62,304 nt of DNA from Acidobacteriota bacterium (GTDB lineage Bacteria > Acidobacteriota > Terriglobia > Acidiferrales > UBA7541): positions 157,917-220,220 of the forward strand of contig QHZD01000028.1 in the NCBI GenBank assembly GCA_003225315.1, written 5' to 3'. This document shows positions 34,248-43,290 of this stretch, piece after piece. The number at the start of each line of letters is the position of its first letter. Position 1 is the stretch's first letter. Below the pieces are notes generated by a model. That model saw only the letters and a program-made list of their open reading frames with translations. It searched no databases and was not told the DNA's origin. Both the position numbers and the translations under genes were made by a program.

Positions 34248-34430
34248 GTCATCTCCTGAATTTTTCCGCTCTGCACAACTGAACGTGCATTAGTTAGATG
34301 TTAGGAACCTACAGAAGATTGTCCGCTAGCGTCACAATTTATCGCCCGGCCGGGAGTTGAACGATATGTTGTGAGCTGAAGTTGCATAAACTGAATTTAT
34401 TTCATTTAGCATAAGTATTAATTTGACTCA
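34248..34430. other. AT-rich divergent intergenic region
   Basis: This is the spacer between the FAD reductase start and the ilv promoter. It is noticeably AT-rich towards its right end (TTTATTTCATTTAGCATAAG). It presumably holds the reductase promoter and upstream elements of the ilv promoter. No gene is seen. Confidence 0.4.
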
Positions 34431-34459
34431 TTGACTTCCCTGCCCCATCCTGCTACTTT
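34431..34459 (+). promoter_or_regulatory. Candidate promoter of the ilv leader and operon
   Basis: TTGACT at 34431-34436 and TACTTT at 34454-34459 are 17 bases apart. Transcription would start near 34466, about ten bases before the leader-peptide ATG. A second overlapping TTGACT lies at 34423-34428. The -10 is weak but the placement is right. Confidence 0.45.
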
Positions 34460-34475
34460 GGATGGCGAAGACACT

Positions 34476-34604
34476 ATGCTTTGCCTATCCATCACAAACC
34501 ACCGGATTTTTTCAAGGCATGGGAACGCCCGAATTGTAGACTCGATTGTTGTACGAATTATTCCCGTCCCGAAGAGGGGCAATAGGCGGATGATGGCGGC
34601 CTAG
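34476..34604 (+). CDS. ilv operon leader peptide rich in Ile/Val
   Basis: A 42-codon frame from ATG 34476 to TAG 34602-34604. Codons 20-31 read ATT GTA GAC TCG ATT GTT GTA CGA ATT ATT CCC GTC, giving eight Ile/Val in twelve codons, just before the antiterminator strand. The peptide core [13 protein letters not shown] is strikingly like the run of Val/Ile then Pro in enterobacterial IlvL. It is followed by the branched-chain biosynthesis genes, as expected for attenuation by charged tRNA-Ile and tRNA-Val. The ribosome site is weak (GGCGAAGACACT). The peptide itself is presumably not functional. Confidence 0.72.
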
Positions 34605-34667
34605 CACAGCATCGCAGAAGCTTTCAAGGCCATCATCCAGTCCTGGTTGATGGTTTTTTGTTTTTTT
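34588..34667 (+). promoter_or_regulatory. ilv transcription attenuator (antiterminator/terminator switch)
   Basis: GGATGATGG at 34588-34596, inside the last leader codons, is perfectly complementary to CCATCATCC at 34630-34638, the 5' arm of the terminator hairpin. A ribosome stalled on the Ile/Val codons (34533-34568) leaves the first strand free to form the antiterminator. A ribosome reaching the stop at 34604 covers it, letting the terminator form. The geometry is that of classical amino-acid attenuators. Confidence 0.75.
34630..34667 (+). terminator. Intrinsic terminator of the ilv attenuator
   Basis: CCATCATCCA-GTCC-TGGTTGATGG (34630-34653) forms a ten-position stem with one T-T mismatch and a four-base loop. 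It is followed by TTTTTTGTTTTTTT (34654-34667). It is a textbook intrinsic terminator only about 50 bases before ilvD. Confidence 0.85.
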
Positions 34668-34720
34668 GGGTTGCAACTTTTGTTGTGGGAGCGATGGATG
34701 ATCGTGGAAAGGACTCCGCA

Positions 34721-36451
34721 GTGAGCGACTCTTTGCCCAAACCGCGCAGCCGGGCTCTAGTTGATGGCGCAAACCGCGCGGGCGCGCGCGCCATGCTTCG
34801 CGCCTGCGGCCTCCAAGATGATGACTTCAAAAAGCCGCTCATCGGTGTGGCGAATACCTGGATCGAGATTGGTCCCTGCAACTATCACCTCCGCGAACTC
34901 GCGCAGCACGTAAAAGAGGGCATTCGCGCCGCTGGCGGAACGCCTCTGGAGTTCAACACGGTCTCCATTTCCGACGGCATCACCATGGGCACGGAAGGCA
35001 TGCGCGCATCCCTTGTGAGCCGCGAAGTCATCGCCGATTCCATCGAACTTGTTACCCGCGGAAATCTCTTCGATGCGCTGGTTGTTCTTGTTGGCTGCGA
35101 CAAGACGATTCCGGGCGGCATCATGGCCCTGGCCCGGTTGAATATTCCGGGGCTCATTCTATATGGCGGCTCCATTGCCCCTGGTCAGTTTGAGGGCCAC
35201 GCCGTCACGATTCAGGACGTCTATGAAGCCATAGGCAAACACGCGCGCGGCGGAATGACAGATGCTCAGCTCAAGTCTCTTGAGGTTTCCGCTTGTCCGG
35301 GAGCTGGCGCCTGCGGCGGACAGTTCACTGCGAACACCATGGCGATGGTCTGCGAATTCCTGGGGATTGCGCCCATGGGACTCTCCAGCGTTCCAGCGAC
35401 AAATGCGGGAAAAGCCGCCGCTGGTTATCGCGCGGGCGAGTTTGTGCTCGAACTTCTCCGCCGCGACTTCACTCCTTCAAAGATCATCACCAAAGCGGCG
35501 ATTGAAAACGCCATCACCGGAGTTGCCGCAACCGGCGGCTCGACAAATTCTGTGCTGCATCTTCTGGCCATCGCCAACGAAGCGAAAATCCCGCTCTCCA
35601 TTGACGATTTCGACCGTATCAGTTCGCGCGTGCCGATCATCGCCGATCTCAAACCTGGAGGACGTTTTGTCGCAACCGATCTCTACGCGGCAGGCGGCAC
35701 TGCGCTCGTCGCAAAGCGCTTGCTTGAAGCTGGATTGCTCCGCGGAGATGCCATCACCGTTACGGGAAGTACTCTTGCCGAAGAAGCAGCCAAAGCTAAG
35801 GAAACGCCGTCGCAAGAAGTCGTACGCAAACTCAACGCGCCCCTCAAGCCCACTGGTGGCCTCGTTATCTTGAAGGGAAATATCGCTCCCGAGGGCTGCG
35901 TGATTAAGGTGGCGGGTCACAATTTGCAGAGTTTCCGCGGTCCCGCACGAGTGTTCGACAACGAAGAAGCGGCCTTCGCCGCCGTCGAGCAAGGCGCCAT
36001 CAAGGCTGGCGACGTAATCGTCATTCGCTATGAGGGACCGAAAGGCGGCCCTGGCATGCGCGAAATGCTCGCGGTGACCGCCGCGCTGGTCGGCGCCGGT
36101 CTGGGTGATTCCGTTGCATTGCTCACGGACGGGCGATTTTCCGGGGCCACGCATGGTCTCATGGCCGGCCACGTCGCTCCCGAGGCCGCCAATGGCGGTC
36201 CCATCGCAGCTATCGCCGACGGCGACACCATTATCTTCGACATCCCCAAGCGCCAACTGACCTTGGATCTAAGCGCGGCGGAGATTCAGAAACGTCTTGC
36301 CACGTGGAGACCGCCGCAACCGCGCTTTACGAGCGGGGTCATGGCCAAGTACGCATTGCTTGTTTCTTCTTCGTCTCTTGGCGCGGTTACCGCCGTGCCC
36401 GCCGCTTTTTCGGTGCCAGCCGCGTCTGGCTCGTTTGCGAGGACTTCATGA
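34721..36451 (+). CDS. ilvD: Dihydroxy-acid dehydratase
   Basis: About 576 residues. It catalyses dehydration of 2,3-dihydroxy-isovalerate/3-methylvalerate, the third step of Val/Ile synthesis. Iron-sulfur cysteines are in [17 protein letters not shown] and [34 protein letters not shown] marks the C-terminal domain. I prefer GTG 34721, seven bases after AAAGGA. ATG 34694 has GGGAG too close, and the longer frame begins inside the terminator T-tract. The C-terminus carries roughly 20 extra residues ([19 protein letters not shown]) beyond the family's usual end, running into a four-base overlap with ilvB. First structural gene of the attenuated operon. Confidence 0.95.
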
Positions 36452-38160
36452 AGCTTACCGGTGCAGAAACTCTTTGCGAATCGCTCACGCGTCTCGGTGT
36501 GCGCGAGATTTTCGGGTATCCCGGCGGCGCGATTCTGCCGGTCTATGACGCACTCGGCAAATCGAAGCTGCATCACGTCCTGGTGCGCCACGAACAAGGC
36601 GCTACGCACATGGCCGATGGCTATGCGCGCGCCAGCGGCGGAATCGGCGTGGCCATGGCTACATCCGGTCCCGGCGCAACGAACATGGTTACCGGCATCG
36701 CTACCGCCATGATGGACTCCTCCCCGGTCGTCTGCATTACGGGCCAAGTCAGCAGCAAAGTCCTGGGCTCAGACGCCTTTCAGGAGATCGATATCACGGG
36801 CATCACCATGCCCATCACCAAACACAACGTGGTGATTACGAAGGCGGAGGACATTGCCCGCACCATTCGTGAAGCCTTCTTGATCGCCAACAGCGGTCGT
36901 CCTGGCCCCGTGCTTGTCGACATCACCAAAGACGCGCAGCAAGCTTCCGCTGAATTCAATTGGGAAGCGTCCGAGCCAAAACTTCCGCCGAAACGCCTGC
37001 GCAACAATCACGATCAGGCTGAATTCGACCGCGCCGTCGAAATGTTGAACACTGCCAAGCGCCCCATCATTCTCGCCGGCCACGGCATCATGGTTTCCGG
37101 CGCGATGCGCGCCTTTGAGCAGTTTGTCCGCGCCGGCAATTATCCCGTCGCCATGACGCTCCTCGGCATCGGCTGCTTCCCTGCCAACGATCCACTGAAC
37201 CTTGGCATGATGGGCATGCATGGCGAAGCTTGGGTGAATAACGCGATTCAGGAAGCCGACCTGCTTATTGCCGTCGGCATGCGTTTTGACGACCGCGTCA
37301 CCGGAGACTTGCGCACCTACGCCAAGAGCGCCCGCAAGATCCACATTGAAATTGACCGCGCCGAAATCAACAAGAACGTAAAAGTCGATGCCGCCCTGGT
37401 CGGCGACGCGCGCGAGGTACTCGAAAAACTTACGCCTCACATTCAGACCCGCGACCACGGCACGTGGATTCGCCATATCACCGAACTGAAGGGCGATTCC
37501 GCGGTGCGCGATATCCAGAGCTTGCCTGACAACGGCCACCTTTACGCCGCGCATGTCATCAACGACATCTGGAAAGAAACGCGCGGCGAGGCCATCGTCG
37601 TCACCGACGTCGGCCAGCATCAGATGTGGGAAGCGCAGTATTACCATCACAATCAGCCCCGTACGCTGATTACTTCGGGCGGACTCGGCACCATGGGCTT
37701 TGCTCTTCCTGCCGCCATCGGCGCGAAGTTCGCGAAACCCGGCTCCGAAGTCTGGGTCGTTGTGGGTGACGGCGGATTCCAGATGACCATGAGCGAGCTG
37801 GCTACCATCGTCCAGGAAAAGATCAGCATCAAGATTGCTATCATCAACAACGGCTATCTCGGCATGGTCCGCCAGTGGCAGGAGTTTTTCTATGACAAGC
37901 GCTACGTGGCTACTCCGCTGGTCGCGCCGGATTTTGCCGCGCTCGCCAATGCCTTCGGCATCCGCGGGGAGCGCATCACCAAGCGCGCAGAAGTCGTGCC
38001 AATCATCCGCTCCGCGCGCGAATCGAACGAAACCGTGCTGATCGATTTCCGCGTCGAGCAGGAAGATTCCGTATATCCCATGGTTGCCGCGGGCGCTTCC
38101 CTGAGCGATATGATTCGCCGCCCGAACAATCCGCTTGTCGAGACGGCGACAGAGCCATAG
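36448..38160 (+). CDS. ilvB: Acetolactate synthase large subunit
   Basis: 570 residues from ATG 36448; the open frame further upstream lies inside ilvD and is rejected. This thiamine-diphosphate enzyme condenses pyruvate with pyruvate or 2-oxobutyrate. Seen: [15 protein letters not shown] and [16 protein letters not shown] with the catalytic Glu, the central FAD-binding domain ([20 protein letters not shown]), and the ThDP/Mg motif [15 protein letters not shown]...[12 protein letters not shown]. The start overlaps the ilvD stop and the regulatory subunit follows after 15 bases, so expression is coupled. Confidence 0.96.
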
Positions 38161-38175
38161 GAGCAACAGAAGAAC

Positions 38176-38715
38176 ATGCAAACACTTGTCGCCTACGTCG
38201 AAAACAAGCCCGGCGTGCTCAATCGCGTCGCTTCCCTGGCGCGGCGTCTGGCCATCAATATTGACTCGCTCACGGTGGGTCCAACGGAGAATGAAGAAAT
38301 CGCCCGCATGACCATCGTGGCTCATACCGATGAACGGGGCGCGCATCGCCTCGAAGCCAGCCTCGAAAAACTCGTCGATGTTCTGCTCGCGGAGAATATC
38401 TCGACTCGCGCGCTCCTTGAGCGGGACCTGGCCCTAATCAAGGTTTCTGCCGACCAGCAGAATCGTCCGCATCTGATGGAATTGATCAAGGTTTTTCGCG
38501 CGCGGGTCGTCGATGTCGCCCCGGAATCACTCATCATTGAAGTTTCTGGCACTGTCGACAAGATTGATGGCTTGCTCGAAGTCCTTAGGCCTTTTGGCGT
38601 ACTGGAGATGGCCCGCACCGGCCGGATTTCCATGACCCGCGGCGGCGATTTGTTGCAACCACCGCCCGCCACACAATCCGAATCGCTCGAAACAGCGGAG
38701 GCGAAGTCAAAGTAG
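38176..38715 (+). CDS. ilvN: Acetolactate synthase small regulatory subunit
   Basis: 179 residues with an N-terminal ACT domain ([22 protein letters not shown], about 2-75) that binds valine for feedback inhibition. The ALS_ss C-terminal domain has [17 protein letters not shown] and [25 protein letters not shown]. It associates with the upstream large subunit, restoring activity and Val sensitivity. The last 20 residues are a low-complexity tail. Gene order ilvB-ilvN-ilvC is the usual one. Confidence 0.95.
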
Positions 38716-38825: not shown

Positions 38826-39863
38826 ATGGCAAATCTCTACTACGACAATTCCGCTGACATTTCACTGATTCAGGCCAAACAAGTCGCCATCATCGGTTAC
38901 GGCTCGCAAGGGCATGCACACGTCCTCAATCTCCGCGATAGCGGCGTTTCCGTCCGCGTCGGCCTCCATGAAGGGAGCGCCTCACGCGCCAAAGCAGAAA
39001 AGGCAGGCTTGACCGTCAATACTCCCGCGGAAGCCGCTGCCTGGGCCGACGTCATCATGATTCTGGTTCCGGACACCAAGCAGCCGAAGCTGTATCGCGA
39101 TGCCATCGAGCCCAATCTCAAGCCCGGCAAGACACTGATGTTCGCGCACGGCTTCAACATTCGTTTCGGCACGATCAAGCCGCCCGCAGCCGTCGATGTC
39201 TCCATGATCGCTCCGAAAGCACCGGGCCATCGCGTTCGCGAAGTTTTTACTGAGGGCGGCGGCACACCCGCGCTCCTGGCGGTCGAACAGGATGGCAGCG
39301 GCTCAGCGAAAGCTCTCGCTCTCGCCTACGCAAAAGGACTCGGCTGCACGCGCGCCGGCGTTCTGGAGACGACTTTTACCGAAGAGACCGAGACCGATCT
39401 CTTTGGCGAGCAGGCCGTACTTTGCGGCGGCGTAAGTGAATTGATCAAGGCGGGCTTCGAGACCCTCACGGAAGCGGGCTACCAACCCGAAGTCGCCTAT
39501 TTCGAATGCCTCCACGAGCTCAAGCTCATCGTTGACCTGATTTACCGCGGCGGCCTCAGCTATATGCGCTACTCCGTCAGCGATACGGCCGAACAGGGCG
39601 ATTATTCCGCCGGGCCGCGCATTATCACCAAACAGACCCGCGAAGAGATGCGTAAGATCCTCGCTGAGATACGCAACGGCACTTTCGCAAAGGCCTGGAT
39701 CGCCGAGAATGAAAAAGGATGCCCCAACTTTCTCGCCACGCGCCAGCGAGAACAGCAGAACCCCATCGAGCAACTCGGACCCAAGCTTCGCGCCATGATG
39801 CCCTTCCTTCAGCCGGTGATCGCGCCCGGACTCGAGAGCAAAGCGGCCGCCTCCAAAAAATAG
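38826..39863 (+). CDS. ilvC: Ketol-acid reductoisomerase, class I
   Basis: 345 residues, the usual class I length. It isomerises and reduces acetolactate or acetohydroxybutyrate. The Rossmann motif [17 protein letters not shown] is at about 24-40. The cofactor loop [13 protein letters not shown] has the Ser pattern of NADPH users. Metal and catalytic residues lie in the knotted domain ([22 protein letters not shown] and [18 protein letters not shown]). GAGAGGAAGCAA precedes the ATG. It is last in the attenuated ilvDBNC operon; ilvE and leu genes are not in the window. Confidence 0.97.
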
Positions 39864-40002
39864 TGTTCCGACGGGTTGTCCGTGCATCGTTGACCCGACT
39901 CTCGAAACCTCATCCCACTATTCGGGCCTCATCTCTTCCGGACTCGGATATGATGTCGTCTCAATATGATTGGACGTTAAACCCCGAAAAGGAACCATTT
40001 GC

Positions 40003-43000
40003 GTGCCTTTTGACCGGAATCAACCCTTGCCTTTTTCGAATCAATCTCAACGTTTTCACATTAGCCGCCCTACAGAAACTTCCACAGCTCTTGCAGTGCT
40101 TCTTTTAGTTTTGACTTTGCTCTTGCAGCCGCCAGCCCGTGCGCAATCCGAGCCCACTCTGGCTGAACGCATCCAGAACGTCATCAGCCGTCCCGAATTT
40201 GCTCACGCCAACTTCGGCATCGAGTTCTATTCTCTCGACACCGGCAAAGTGGTCTATGCCTTGAACTCTGACAAATTGTTCGTGCCCGCTTCAACCACGA
40301 AAATCCTCACCGAAGGTACCCTCCTTGCGACACTTGGCGCAGGCTACCGCTTTCATACTCGCGTCTACCGCACTGGCCCAACCGACAAGCACGGCACACT
40401 TAAAGGCGATCTAATCCTCGTCGCCAGCGGCGATCCGAATCTTTCGAACCGCATTCAACCTGACGGCACTCTCGCCTTTGTAGACGAAGACCATTCTTAC
40501 CAGGGCCCTGCTCTTCCCGGCGATCCTCTCTCAGTCATCAAACAACTTGCGAAAGACGTCGCTGCCAAGGGCATTCACAAGATCGAAGGGCGTGTGCTGG
40601 TGGACACGACGCTTTTTCCGGACGGCCCTCGGGAGGGAGGCACGAACGTCGTGATGTCCTCCATCATGGTCAATGACAATGTCATCGATCTCATCGGCTC
40701 CCCCGGCGCGAAAATAGGAGATCCTGCCGATCTCAAGTCTTCGCCTCAGACTTCCTACATCAAATTCGTGAATCACTTGCTCACCTCTCCCGCCGGCACG
40801 CGGCCGATGTTTGAGTCGCCCGATTTCGCCACAAATCCGGACGGTTCCGTCTCGGTTACTTTATCGGGTAGCTTGCCGGTCGGGATCGCGCCTCAACCAG
40901 CGACCATTGCGGTGCCCTCTCCAACAAAGTTTGCAGAGACTGTCTTCCGCGAAGCGCTGTCAGCCGCAAGCATTCAAATCAAAAATAGCCCTGGGCCCAG
41001 CGTCAGTGATTTTTCTCCCTACACGCGTTTCTATACGGCTGAGAATCAGGTAGCCGAGCACGTTTCTCCTCCCCTCTCGGAAGAAATCAAGGTTACCCTC
41101 AAGGTCAGCCAAAATCTGCACGCCGGCATGGGGCCGTATCTCCTCGGCGCTCTCGCTGGGAAAGACATGAAGAGCCCGCTCGATGCTGGCTTCAAGATCG
41201 AGCATGACTTTCTCCAATCATCCAAGCTCGATCTGTCCGGTGCCGCGCAGGGCGATGGAGCCGGAGGCGATTGGGCCGACCTTTTCAGCCCCGACTTCAT
41301 GGTCCACTACCTCACCTATTGGGCGACGCGTCCTGACTATCAGGTTTTTTTCCAGGCGCTTCCAGTTCTCGGCAAAGACGGTACACTCGCGAAAATTCAG
41401 ACCAATTCGCCGGGCGCAGGTCATGTCTTCGCAAAAACCGGCACGTTTGGCTCCGAAGACAAACTTGGCGGCAAAATGATGCTCAACGGCAAAGGCCTCG
41501 CCGGTTACGTCCTCACAAAGGATGGGAAGAAGCTGGCCTTTGCCGCTTACGTCAATCACGTTTCGCTCAATCCTGATCCCGAAGCTGCGCAGCAGGTGGC
41601 CGGTCAAGCACTGGGAGAAATCGCGGCTGCGGCTTACGACGCGAATCTGGATACCTCCGCGAATGCCGGCGAATACGATCTCCTCATTCGCAACGGCCAT
41701 GTCATCGACGGCACGGGTAATCCCTGGTTCGCCGCGGATGTTGCTGTCAGCGGTGATCGCGTTGCGGCTATCGGCGATTTGCGTGAAGCCCATGCCAAGC
41801 GCGAAATCGATGCGAAGGGCCGCATTGTCGCTCCTGGCTTTATTGATATGCTCGGCCAGTCGGAAGTGTCGCTTCTCCTCGACAATCGTTCGCTGAGCAA
41901 ACTTTCCCAGGGAATCACCACGGAAATTACCGGCGAAGGCGGGTCCATCGCTCCGGAAAATGAAAAAACCATCGCGCCTCAGAAACCGTTTCTCGACAAG
42001 TACAAGCTCACGATCGATTGGACCACGCTCGACGGCTATTTCCGCCGCCTCGAAAAGCAAGGCACACCACTCAATATCGGCACTTACGTCGGCTCAGCGC
42101 AAGTCCGCGAGGCGGTGATTGGCGATGATGATCGTGCTCCTACGCCTGCCGAACTTGAGCAAATGAAATCCCTCGTCGAGCAGGCTATGAAAGATGGGGC
42201 TCTCGGTGTTTCCAGCGCCCTCATCTATCCGCCGAACATTTACGCGAAGACCGACGAGCTCATCGCGCTTGCGAAAGTTGCCTCAAAATACGGCGGCCTT
42301 TATGCCACGCACATGCGCAGCGAAGGCGCTTCGGAAGTGTCCGCGCTTGCCGAAGCCATTCGAATCGGCCGCGAAGCCAATTTGCCAGTTGAGATTTTTC
42401 ACCTTAAAGTGAGCGGCAAGCCTCGCTGGGGCGGCATGAAGAACGTTGTCGCAGCCATTCAGCTCGCTCGCGATTCCGGCCTCGACATTGCCGCGGACAT
42501 GTATCCCTACACTGCCGGCGCTACGGCGCTGGCTTCGTCTCTTCCGCCGTGGGTCGCCGATGGCGGCGTCCAGAAATTGCTCGAGCGCCTGAAAGACCGG
42601 ACCATACGCGTGCGCGTTAAGAAGGATTTGGCCGGGGATCATCCTGATTGGGAAAATCTTTTTTACGATTGCGGCGGCGCAGCAGGAATTCTTGTCGCCT
42701 CTGCCGAGAATCCCGATCTCAAGCAATTCGCCGGAAAAACACTGGACGACGTTGCCAGGACATGGAAGAAATCCCCGGAAGACACTCTCATGGATTTCGT
42801 CCTAGCCGATAACGCGCAATCCGGGGCGATCTATTTCATGGCCAGCGAAGAAGACCTCCGCACTGGTCTTAGCCAGCCTTGGACTAGCATCGGTCTCGAC
42901 GCCGGCGAAATGTCTCTTGACGGACCCACTTACGAACCGCACACGCATCCGCGGGCAATGGGCTCCGTGCCGCGCTTCCTAGGGCATTATGTCCGCGGCG

Positions 43001-43290
43001 AGCATCTCATGCCCTTGGAAGCGGCGATTCGAAAGATCACTTCGCTTCCCGCTCAGCGCGAACACCTCGAAGGCCGCGGCCTCCTCAAGCCCGGCTACTT
43101 CGCCGACATCAGCATCTTCGACGCCGCAACCATCATCGACCATGCCACGTTCACGAAACCCGATCAGCTCTCCGAGGGCATCGACTACACCATCGTCAAC
43201 GGGCAGGTCGAATACGATCAGGGAAAATTGACAGGTACGACAGCCGGCCGCGTTTTGCGCGGCCGTGGGTGGCAAGCAGCGACCAACTGA
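40003..43290 (+). CDS. DD-carboxypeptidase (PBP4/DacB) fused to D-aminoacylase
   Basis: About 1095 residues from GTG 40003, nine bases after AAAAGGA; a TTG at 39970 is less likely. A signal or anchor (ALAVLLLVLTLLLQPPARAQ) leads into an S13 peptidase with SxxK at 97-100 (PASTTK), SQN at 369-371 and KTG at 478-480, a complete penicillin-binding active site. From about 557 an amidohydrolase/D-aminoacylase domain follows (YDLLIRNGHVIDGTGNPW), with His770 (ATHMRSEG) and His800 (FHLKVSG). The first metal motif is altered: PGFIDMLGQSE instead of HxH. The fusion suggests coupled cell-wall D-amino-acid release and deacylation in the periplasm. Confidence 0.9.
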   Translation: MPFDRNQPLPFSNQSQRFHISRPTETSTALAVLLLVLTLLLQPPARAQSEPTLAERIQNVISRPEFAHANFGIEFYSLDTGKVVYALNSDKLFVPASTTKILTEGTLLATLGAGYRFHTRVYRTGPTDKHGTLKGDLILVASGDPNLSNRIQPDGTLAFVDEDHSYQGPALPGDPLSVIKQLAKDVAAKGIHKIEGRVLVDTTLFPDGPREGGTNVVMSSIMVNDNVIDLIGSPGAKIGDPADLKSSPQTSYIKFVNHLLTSPAGTRPMFESPDFATNPDGSVSVTLSGSLPVGIAPQPATIAVPSPTKFAETVFREALSAASIQIKNSPGPSVSDFSPYTRFYTAENQVAEHVSPPLSEEIKVTLKVSQNLHAGMGPYLLGALAGKDMKSPLDAGFKIEHDFLQSSKLDLSGAAQGDGAGGDWADLFSPDFMVHYLTYWATRPDYQVFFQALPVLGKDGTLAKIQTNSPGAGHVFAKTGTFGSEDKLGGKMMLNGKGLAGYVLTKDGKKLAFAAYVNHVSLNPDPEAAQQVAGQALGEIAAAAYDANLDTSANAGEYDLLIRNGHVIDGTGNPWFAADVAVSGDRVAAIGDLREAHAKREIDAKGRIVAPGFIDMLGQSEVSLLLDNRSLSKLSQGITTEITGEGGSIAPENEKTIAPQKPFLDKYKLTIDWTTLDGYFRRLEKQGTPLNIGTYVGSAQVREAVIGDDDRAPTPAELEQMKSLVEQAMKDGALGVSSALIYPPNIYAKTDELIALAKVASKYGGLYATHMRSEGASEVSALAEAIRIGREANLPVEIFHLKVSGKPRWGGMKNVVAAIQLARDSGLDIAADMYPYTAGATALASSLPPWVADGGVQKLLERLKDRTIRVRVKKDLAGDHPDWENLFYDCGGAAGILVASAENPDLKQFAGKTLDDVARTWKKSPEDTLMDFVLADNAQSGAIYFMASEEDLRTGLSQPWTSIGLDAGEMSLDGPTYEPHTHPRAMGSVPRFLGHYVRGEHLMPLEAAIRKITSLPAQREHLEGRGLLKPGYFADISIFDAATIIDHATFTKPDQLSEGIDYTIVNGQVEYDQGKLTGTTAGRVLRGRGWQAATN

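Follow-up and report, generated by a model that had tools for sequence, protein, structure and literature searches.

Leader-peptide attenuators are described in Actinobacteria, in the excerpt considered of one report (PMC1262725), and an excerpt of another assigns the hisS and hisZ leaders of bacilli to leader-peptide attenuation (PMC2965389); both systems, like the locus studied here, lie outside the Proteobacteria, but they belong to other phyla. The closest ilv attenuator study among those found concerns, as far as its excerpt goes, the Corynebacterium ilvB-II motif or ilvBNC uORF, a branched-chain-rich upstream ORF that is proposed to attenuate the ilv operon (PMC10272879). This motif comes from another phylum and stands upstream of ilvB, and we liken it to our element by its description in that excerpt only (PMC10272879). 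For Acidobacteria, peaks in leader-gene distance have been reported, and 'ilv' is absent from the excerpt of that report (PMC4833913).

Regulation of amino-acid synthesis in Acidobacteriota, which are abundant soil bacteria, is little described. The original prediction placed a leader-peptide attenuator before ilvDBNC in a likely acidobacterium and knew of no account of such an element in the phylum; in agreement, we found no acidobacterial description in the open-access literature, among the matches listed (titles and abstract openings). Here, we analyzed this locus in a 62,304-nucleotide stretch of acidobacterial DNA (the window). The finding is larger than first stated: judged by sequence comparison, the window element is one of a set of candidate attenuators that spans several acidobacterial lineages and several amino acids.

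A putative leader peptide and two exclusive hairpins precede ilvDBNC

The four genes expected downstream were each named by NCBIfam and, like all features of the element, lie on the + strand: ilvD (dihydroxy-acid dehydratase, 34721-36451, TIGR00110, GTG start), ilvB (acetolactate synthase large subunit, 36448-38160, TIGR00118), ilvN (acetolactate synthase small subunit, 38176-38715, TIGR00119 and NF008864, both above cut-off) and ilvC (ketol-acid reductoisomerase, 38826-39863, TIGR00465). Beyond ilvC, one 1106-aa frame (39970-43290) is, by eye, an apparent fusion of a PBP4-like D-Ala-D-Ala carboxypeptidase and an N-acyl-D-amino-acid deacylase.

Upstream of ilvD, a putative -35 element (TTGACT, 34431-34436) is conserved in the genus alignment A1, with a second TTGACT just 5' of it (34423-34428), and by-eye similarity in A1 suggests an extended -10 element (TGCTACTTT, 34451-34459) 17 nt from the -35. 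Neither a consensus promoter scan nor a simple terminator scan of the window picks up this site.

The leader peptide ORF (34476-34604) starts with ATG at 34476 and runs for 42 codons to a TAG (34602-34604). Its putative control codons 20-31 (34533-34568) hold eight Ile/Val in 12, and the predicted coordinates of this frame, run and stop proved right to the base. The paired arms claimed before ilvD were found as GGATGATGGC (34588-34597), identified as the antiterminator 5' arm by alignment, pairing and folding, and GCCATCATCC (34629-34638). Pairing and covariation identify GCCATCATCC as both the 3' arm of the antiterminator and the 5' arm of the terminator, whose own 3' arm is GGTTGATGG (34645-34653; covariation, folding). 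The T6-G-T7 tract of the predicted intrinsic terminator follows at 34654-34667 and then ilvD, so the terminator hairpin and tract also lie where they had been placed. With one arm in common, the antiterminator (34588-34597/34629-34638) and the terminator (34629-34638/34645-34653) are mutually exclusive. The region thereby holds, in sequence, a short ORF enriched in the residues of its pathway, an intrinsic terminator before ilvD and an antiterminator that excludes it.

Such a run is rare by chance. When the 472-base intergenic region was shuffled 2000 times with its dinucleotides preserved and all frames of both strands were read, one shuffle had at least eight Ile/Val within 12 codons. This rarity argues against a reading in which a plain intrinsic terminator constitutively reduces ilv expression and the Ile/Val run beside it is due to chance; we consider this reading very improbable. 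In its favor, the fold of 34535-34675 is unremarkable and little better than that of shuffles (z -1.5).

Folding and the proposed mechanism

By analogy with described systems, ilvDBNC is very probably controlled by a ribosome-mediated transcription attenuator, and from the same analogy we infer translation of the leader, stalling, termination and the response to supply. When charged tRNA-Ile and tRNA-Val are plentiful, the leading ribosome would reach the leader stop, which lies in the antiterminator 5' arm (just past it in the window), and would mask this arm; the terminator (34629-34667) would then form and transcription would end. When Ile or Val is scarce, stalling at codons 20-31 would keep the ribosome at least about 20 nt short of the arm, which would then be free to pair with 34629-34638; no terminator would form, and ilvDBNC would be transcribed. 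The spacing from the Ile/Val run to the arm fits a stalled versus a terminating ribosome, with an assumed footprint size.

Folding agreed with this scheme in part. Both predicted hairpins fold, the antiterminator at -21.2 kcal/mol (z -2.5) and the terminator at -13.2 kcal/mol (z -3.7). With a ribosome placed at the leader stop, the RNA beyond it has the terminator as its minimum fold. With the ribosome stalled on the Ile/Val run instead, the RNA beyond it favors the antiterminator as long as it extends no further than base 34656 (-26.2); when it includes the full U tract, the terminator becomes the minimum (-27.4 kcal/mol). The whole leader RNA with no ribosome has the antiterminator as its minimum, and masking the antiterminator arm lets the terminator form. 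However, masking the footprint of a stalled ribosome in the whole leader RNA gives the terminator rather than the antiterminator, which speaks against the simple model. Co-transcriptional folding alone, with the antiterminator arms emerging first, could rescue the stall model from this whole-RNA fold.

We also found that the leader start region pairs with the antiterminator arm by at least 7 Watson-Crick bp in 12 of 31 genus sequences, relative to 0.8 expected; in the window this pairing is 6 Watson-Crick bp. A protector helix, which would be terminating when the leader is untranslated, is possible from these complementarities.

Conservation in the genus

Most of the MAGs that make up the close relatives carry the title gp2 Acidobacteria, and one is titled Candidatus Acidiferrum typicum. 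The genus comprises 36 genomes, from which 33 ilvD upstream regions could be read; two genomes had no ilvD at the cut-off and one had a truncated copy only. By reading of frames and alignment, the Ile/Val leader and both hairpins are present in 27 of the 33, and the U tract also recurs in most of the genus, as the attenuator reading had anticipated for relatives. Four regions (L023, L024, L026 and L027) retain the terminator with no recognisable leader, and two (L013 and L025) lack the whole element, having no core and a promoter-like TTAATTTGA nearer ilvD. Hence, with the leader or the whole element missing from 6 of 33 relatives, the element is dispensable. The four leaderless terminators are consistent with the constitutive terminator described above, and the leader retained in 27 of 33 relatives argues against it. 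Similarly, a chance ORF beside a terminator is disfavored by both the shuffles and the conservation.

Counting Ile/Val within 12 codons of a frame that ends at the arm, we found at least four in 28 of 33 regions, at least five in 23 and at least six in 18; the 28 include L027, which has a frame that fails to align and for that reason is not among the 27 read by eye. In most relatives the leader stop is a TGA inside GGATGATGG, which in the window is the TGA at 34591-34593 within the arm (34588-34597). The stop is TAG in L001, L002 and L019, and a later TAA in L006. The window leader, with a frame 2 nt shorter than L003's, passes the TGA of its relatives and ends at TAG 34602, the next stop in register.

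The leaders also differ from the window's genes in codon choice. In 20 genus leaders (the window leader being outside this set, as are L001, L002, L003, L005, L006, L011, L019, L023, L024, L026 and L027), GTA accounts for 39 of the 90 Val codons, relative to 17 of 228 in the eight window genes compared; for Ile, ATT accounts for 36 of 50 codons, relative to 64 of 172. The p-values overstate these differences because the leaders are related. Unusual control codons would sharpen sensitivity. As for a conserved protein, differences among the leaders are nearly flat over the three codon positions (205, 174 and 216; 36 pairs), with no clear third-position excess, and we rejected this possibility.

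Covariation of the stems

In the genus-level set (34 sequences, that is, the 31 of the genus plus L049-L051), 95.8% of the cells of the terminator stem are paired, and 19 show a double change, relative to 1.9 in shuffles. The antiterminator is paired in 95.5% of cells in these 34 sequences, and its one double-change cell (L006, where TGA becomes TAA and the partner TCA becomes TTA) is matched by 104 of 500 shuffles, which is not above chance. In the phylum-wide set of 46 sequences, the terminator has 26 double-change cells relative to 7.0 shuffled, and the antiterminator has 6 relative to 1.1, with 0 of 500 shuffles as high; the latter fall in two pairs, a number reached by 64 of 500 shuffles. 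Hence, the covariation proposed for both stems was found for the terminator and, for the antiterminator, in the phylum-wide set only and not in the genus set. Both the stop and the pairing are kept as TAA:TTA in L006 and L245 and as TAG:CTA in L249.

A further hairpin surrounds the leader start codon (34460-34490; -15.0 kcal/mol, z -5.8). It is paired in 186 of 217 cells across 31 genus sequences, with 0 of 1000 shuffles as high, and its double changes in these sequences are not above shuffles. The likely start site, as placed from the putative promoter, falls on or close to this 5' repeat (ATGGCGA/TCGCCAT), a position that would suit inverted repeats that act as DNA operators, or as another protein-binding element, rather than as RNA hairpins. 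For the 5' repeat an operator is disfavored because the spacing of its arms varies (about 9 to 17 nt in most relatives, by eye), and the downstream arms covary, exclude one another by overlap and run into a U tract, so that we regard the operator reading as very improbable. Leader-peptide attenuation of ilvDBNC, the reading first proposed, is instead well supported by the anatomy, namely the leader, the hairpins, their conservation and the terminator covariation.

Spread of the core beyond the genus

We defined the core as a leader stop codon inside the antiterminator arm, followed by the terminator, and searched with a first model of it (R1) and with a broader model (R2). R1 matches 45 of 399 genomes of the class at E ≤ 1e-3, of which 31 are the genus, window included, and 34 of 297 phylum genomes at the same threshold. 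R2 matches 64 of 396 Acidobacteriota genomes at E ≤ 1e-3 and 41 of 396 at E ≤ 1e-6, the stricter count being given because genomes with false matches sit within the 1e-3 tallies of both models; we judged L176, L178, L179, L180, L205, L208, L246, L248, L253 and L256-L259 to be false by eye. Even at E values as high as 1, the search turned up no further attenuator with this core in the genome that contains the window.

In the class of G624, R2 matches 90 of 193 genomes and 49 of 104 genera at 1e-4. G624 itself has several copies, at ilvD, hom and cysG. Identical contig coordinates of matches (L058 and L071) tie this class to MAGs titled gp6, which we take to be Vicinamibacteria. For genomes reached via named contigs, 11 of 20 with acidobacterial titles match at 1e-3, compared with 1 of 30 others; the 11 include the genomes of L049-L051, which were known carriers beforehand (L049 and L051 are in the R2 training alignment). 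The acidobacterial titles with matches include gp1, gp6, Blastocatellia and Terriglobia, with Acidobacterium sp. S8 matching weakly (4.3e-5), and the sole other title is a Latescibacteria with a weak match (7.9e-4). Groups follow record titles: L053 counts as Deltaproteobacteria, the title of L101 names no phylum, and that of L092 is doubtful. L092 is titled Bifidobacterium breve at 60% IlvD identity, and L043 is titled Betaproteobacteria with an upstream region identical to that of genus member L022; both titles look mislabelled.

The core stands before ilv genes, leuA, cimA/ilvA, aspartokinase/hom and cysteine genes. By hand tally, 49 of the 60 non-own matches at E ≤ 1e-6 precede amino-acid or sulfur-assimilation genes, with L203 entered as phenylalanine by eye. 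The other 11 precede LysR genes (3), a small ORF (4), MFS genes (2), a redoxin-like gene with a Cys-rich leader (1) or a contig edge (1).

Several loci have less familiar neighbors. In L161, L217 and L226, a core with a Val/Leu/Ile-rich leader has a LysR-type regulator gene directly 3', and the reference-set search found no known amino-acid gene adjoining. Strong core matches in L162 and L196 precede an MFS transporter gene, and their leaders have no evident enrichment of a single residue; possibly these leaders sense a general slowdown of translation. L164, L185, L207 and L228 have a Leu-rich leader followed by a conserved small ORF of about 90 aa, for which L164 and L228 gave no NCBIfam or Pfam match; in L260 and L261, ilvC and ilvB are found further downstream, on the other strand. 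In L240 and L244, a Leu-rich leader precedes a cupin-like gene (named by eye, with no NCBIfam match), and no reference-set gene adjoins.

The common core could also have arisen by convergence, in which a stop-bearing arm drifts to GGATGATG/CATCATCC with no common family; we give this reading, which is compatible with attenuation, somewhat less than an even chance. The arm carries TGA, TAG or TAA yet stays complementary, as in the TAA and TAG versions of L006, L245 and L249, which suits convergence, and the similarity of the cores is partly by construction because each model retrieves sequences like those it was trained on, and in this way the search itself selects for it. Against convergence, the core occurs in 90 of 193 genomes of one class, compared with 1 of 30 under other titles, and TAGCC, past the 8-base core, recurs by eye before different operons.

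Leader composition follows the downstream pathway

We took each leader as the frame to the first stop inside the core, ignoring its composition, and each pathway from the downstream genes. From 104 non-genus loci, 26 with no pathway were dropped; 2 of the remaining 78 have no leader by this rule, and removal of near-duplicates left 64 representatives, whose pathway labels were assigned after the leaders were known, though they rest on downstream genes. By permutation over these representatives, the Thr fraction is 0.21 in leaders of Thr operons (+0.155, p = 5e-5) and the Ile+Val fraction is 0.295 in ilv leaders (p = 5e-5). Likewise, the Ile fraction is 0.195 in cimA/ilvA leaders (n = 8, p = 0.003), the Leu fraction is 0.30 in leuA leaders (n = 2, p = 0.0014) and the Cys fraction is 0.22 in Cys-operon leaders (n = 3, p = 1e-4). 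The Cys loci were assigned by a CysG N-terminal domain (L163), by eye (L206) and by a cysteine-synthase relative below the curated cut-off (L242, whose leader ends MLVRACACPCCCPACCRRQDVVYG). Examples of the leaders are MFAQIGIIIIAISSPPPGG before cimA (L255) and MLIVPVRPTMTRTTTITTGDSSGG before aspartokinase (L201).

For Thr and Val, the match recurred in 60 held-out loci that had no part in training the model: 27 were ilv loci, 18 thr and 1 ile, 3 were ambiguous, and 11 had no recognised downstream gene. The rule was fixed before the leaders were seen; these loci are not phylogenetically independent because the class of G624 also supplied training sequences. Among the 46 with a pathway, reduced to 32 representatives, Thr was raised by 0.13 and Val by 0.12 in their respective leaders (p = 5e-5 each); for the one ile locus, the difference lacked significance (p = 0.16). 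Leaders not rich in the expected residue are L199 (Thr) and, in the held-out set, L336 and L344 (Thr); in L192, the blind rule selects a frame with no Val run. Composition that follows the downstream pathway in other lineages also argues against an ordinary constitutive terminator with a chance run.

Two apparent mismatches were discarded. Val-rich leaders stand before pheA, and the genes that follow are ilvB or ilvD; a Thr/Ile leader stands before gltB, and threonine synthase follows in L267 (NCBIfam) and ilvA-like genes follow in L274. As a separate observation, pheA (prephenate dehydratase) heads ilvD/ilvB operons with mostly Val-rich leaders in L157, L158, L278, L285, L288 and L306; with pheA first in operons with Val leaders, phenylalanine synthesis may be tied to valine supply.

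By its core and its leader, the window element is a member of an acidobacterial set of candidate attenuators with a common stop-antiterminator-terminator core and pathway-matched leaders. For many uncultured genomes, the set predicts from sequence alone the regulation of ilv, leu, ile, thr and cys operons, with the leader naming the amino acid that each operon should sense. It would thus be a natural experiment in which one RNA switch is rewired via the codons of a small peptide only.

A second stop in the overlapping frame

A second frame overlaps the leader stop of the relatives and reads ATG ATG GCG GCC TAG in the window (34590-34604). After the leader stop, this ATG frame runs into another stop after no more than 5 codons in 28 of 31 genus sequences, compared with 2 and 0 for the other frames, and the triplet is TAG, TAA or TGA. 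The second stop is also present in 21 of 53 non-genus representatives with a first-frame leader (5 and 2 in the other frames) and in 22 of 39 held-out loci (4 and 0). Of the leaderless relatives, L024, L026 and L027 have no second stop and L023 retains it.

From this pattern, the second frame may be a minigene at which the ribosome reinitiates and is thereby kept on the antiterminator arm. Another reading, which is compatible with attenuation and has about an even chance of being right, makes the stop after ATGATG a backup, by which the leader would still end in place if an indel shifted its frame. The window itself uses the second-frame stop, with its frame 2 nt short of that of L003, and some hom and ilvD leaders of other families end in the second frame, both of which favor a backup. 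On the other side, rare indels should exert little selection for robustness, and reinitiation at the overlapping ATG accounts equally well for the pattern.

A broader proposal joins reinitiation to common ancestry of the set, and we hold it to be rather unlikely: one ancestral Acidobacteriota attenuator cassette, consisting of the stop-bearing antiterminator arm and the terminator, would have been copied before many operons and reprogrammed by leader codons only (Ile/Val, Ile, Leu, Thr or Cys). Its minigene of 3-5 codons, ATG ATG to stop with the start overlapping the leader stop, may re-capture the terminating ribosome on the arm and make termination more decisive. The second stop may expose an undescribed step in which the terminating ribosome holds the switch off.

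Comparison with known systems

At gathering score, none of 4227 Rfam models matches the element; the window gives a tRNA only, and 20 loci including L001 give no match. Aspartokinase leaders such as that of L201 share the Thr/Ile character of E. coli ThrL. Unlike E. coli thrL, L201 has no Rfam match at gathering score, and its core is common with the ilv attenuators of the same phylum.

The ilvL-ilvGMEDA system of E. coli likewise combines an Ile/Val-rich leader, a mutually exclusive antiterminator and terminator, and a branched-chain operon; the two may have arisen independently, as the original prediction allowed. In the acidobacterial element, unlike in E. coli ilvL, the leader normally ends within the antiterminator arm, ilvDBNC follows as the operon, and the core also stands before threonine, cysteine, leucine and isoleucine genes.
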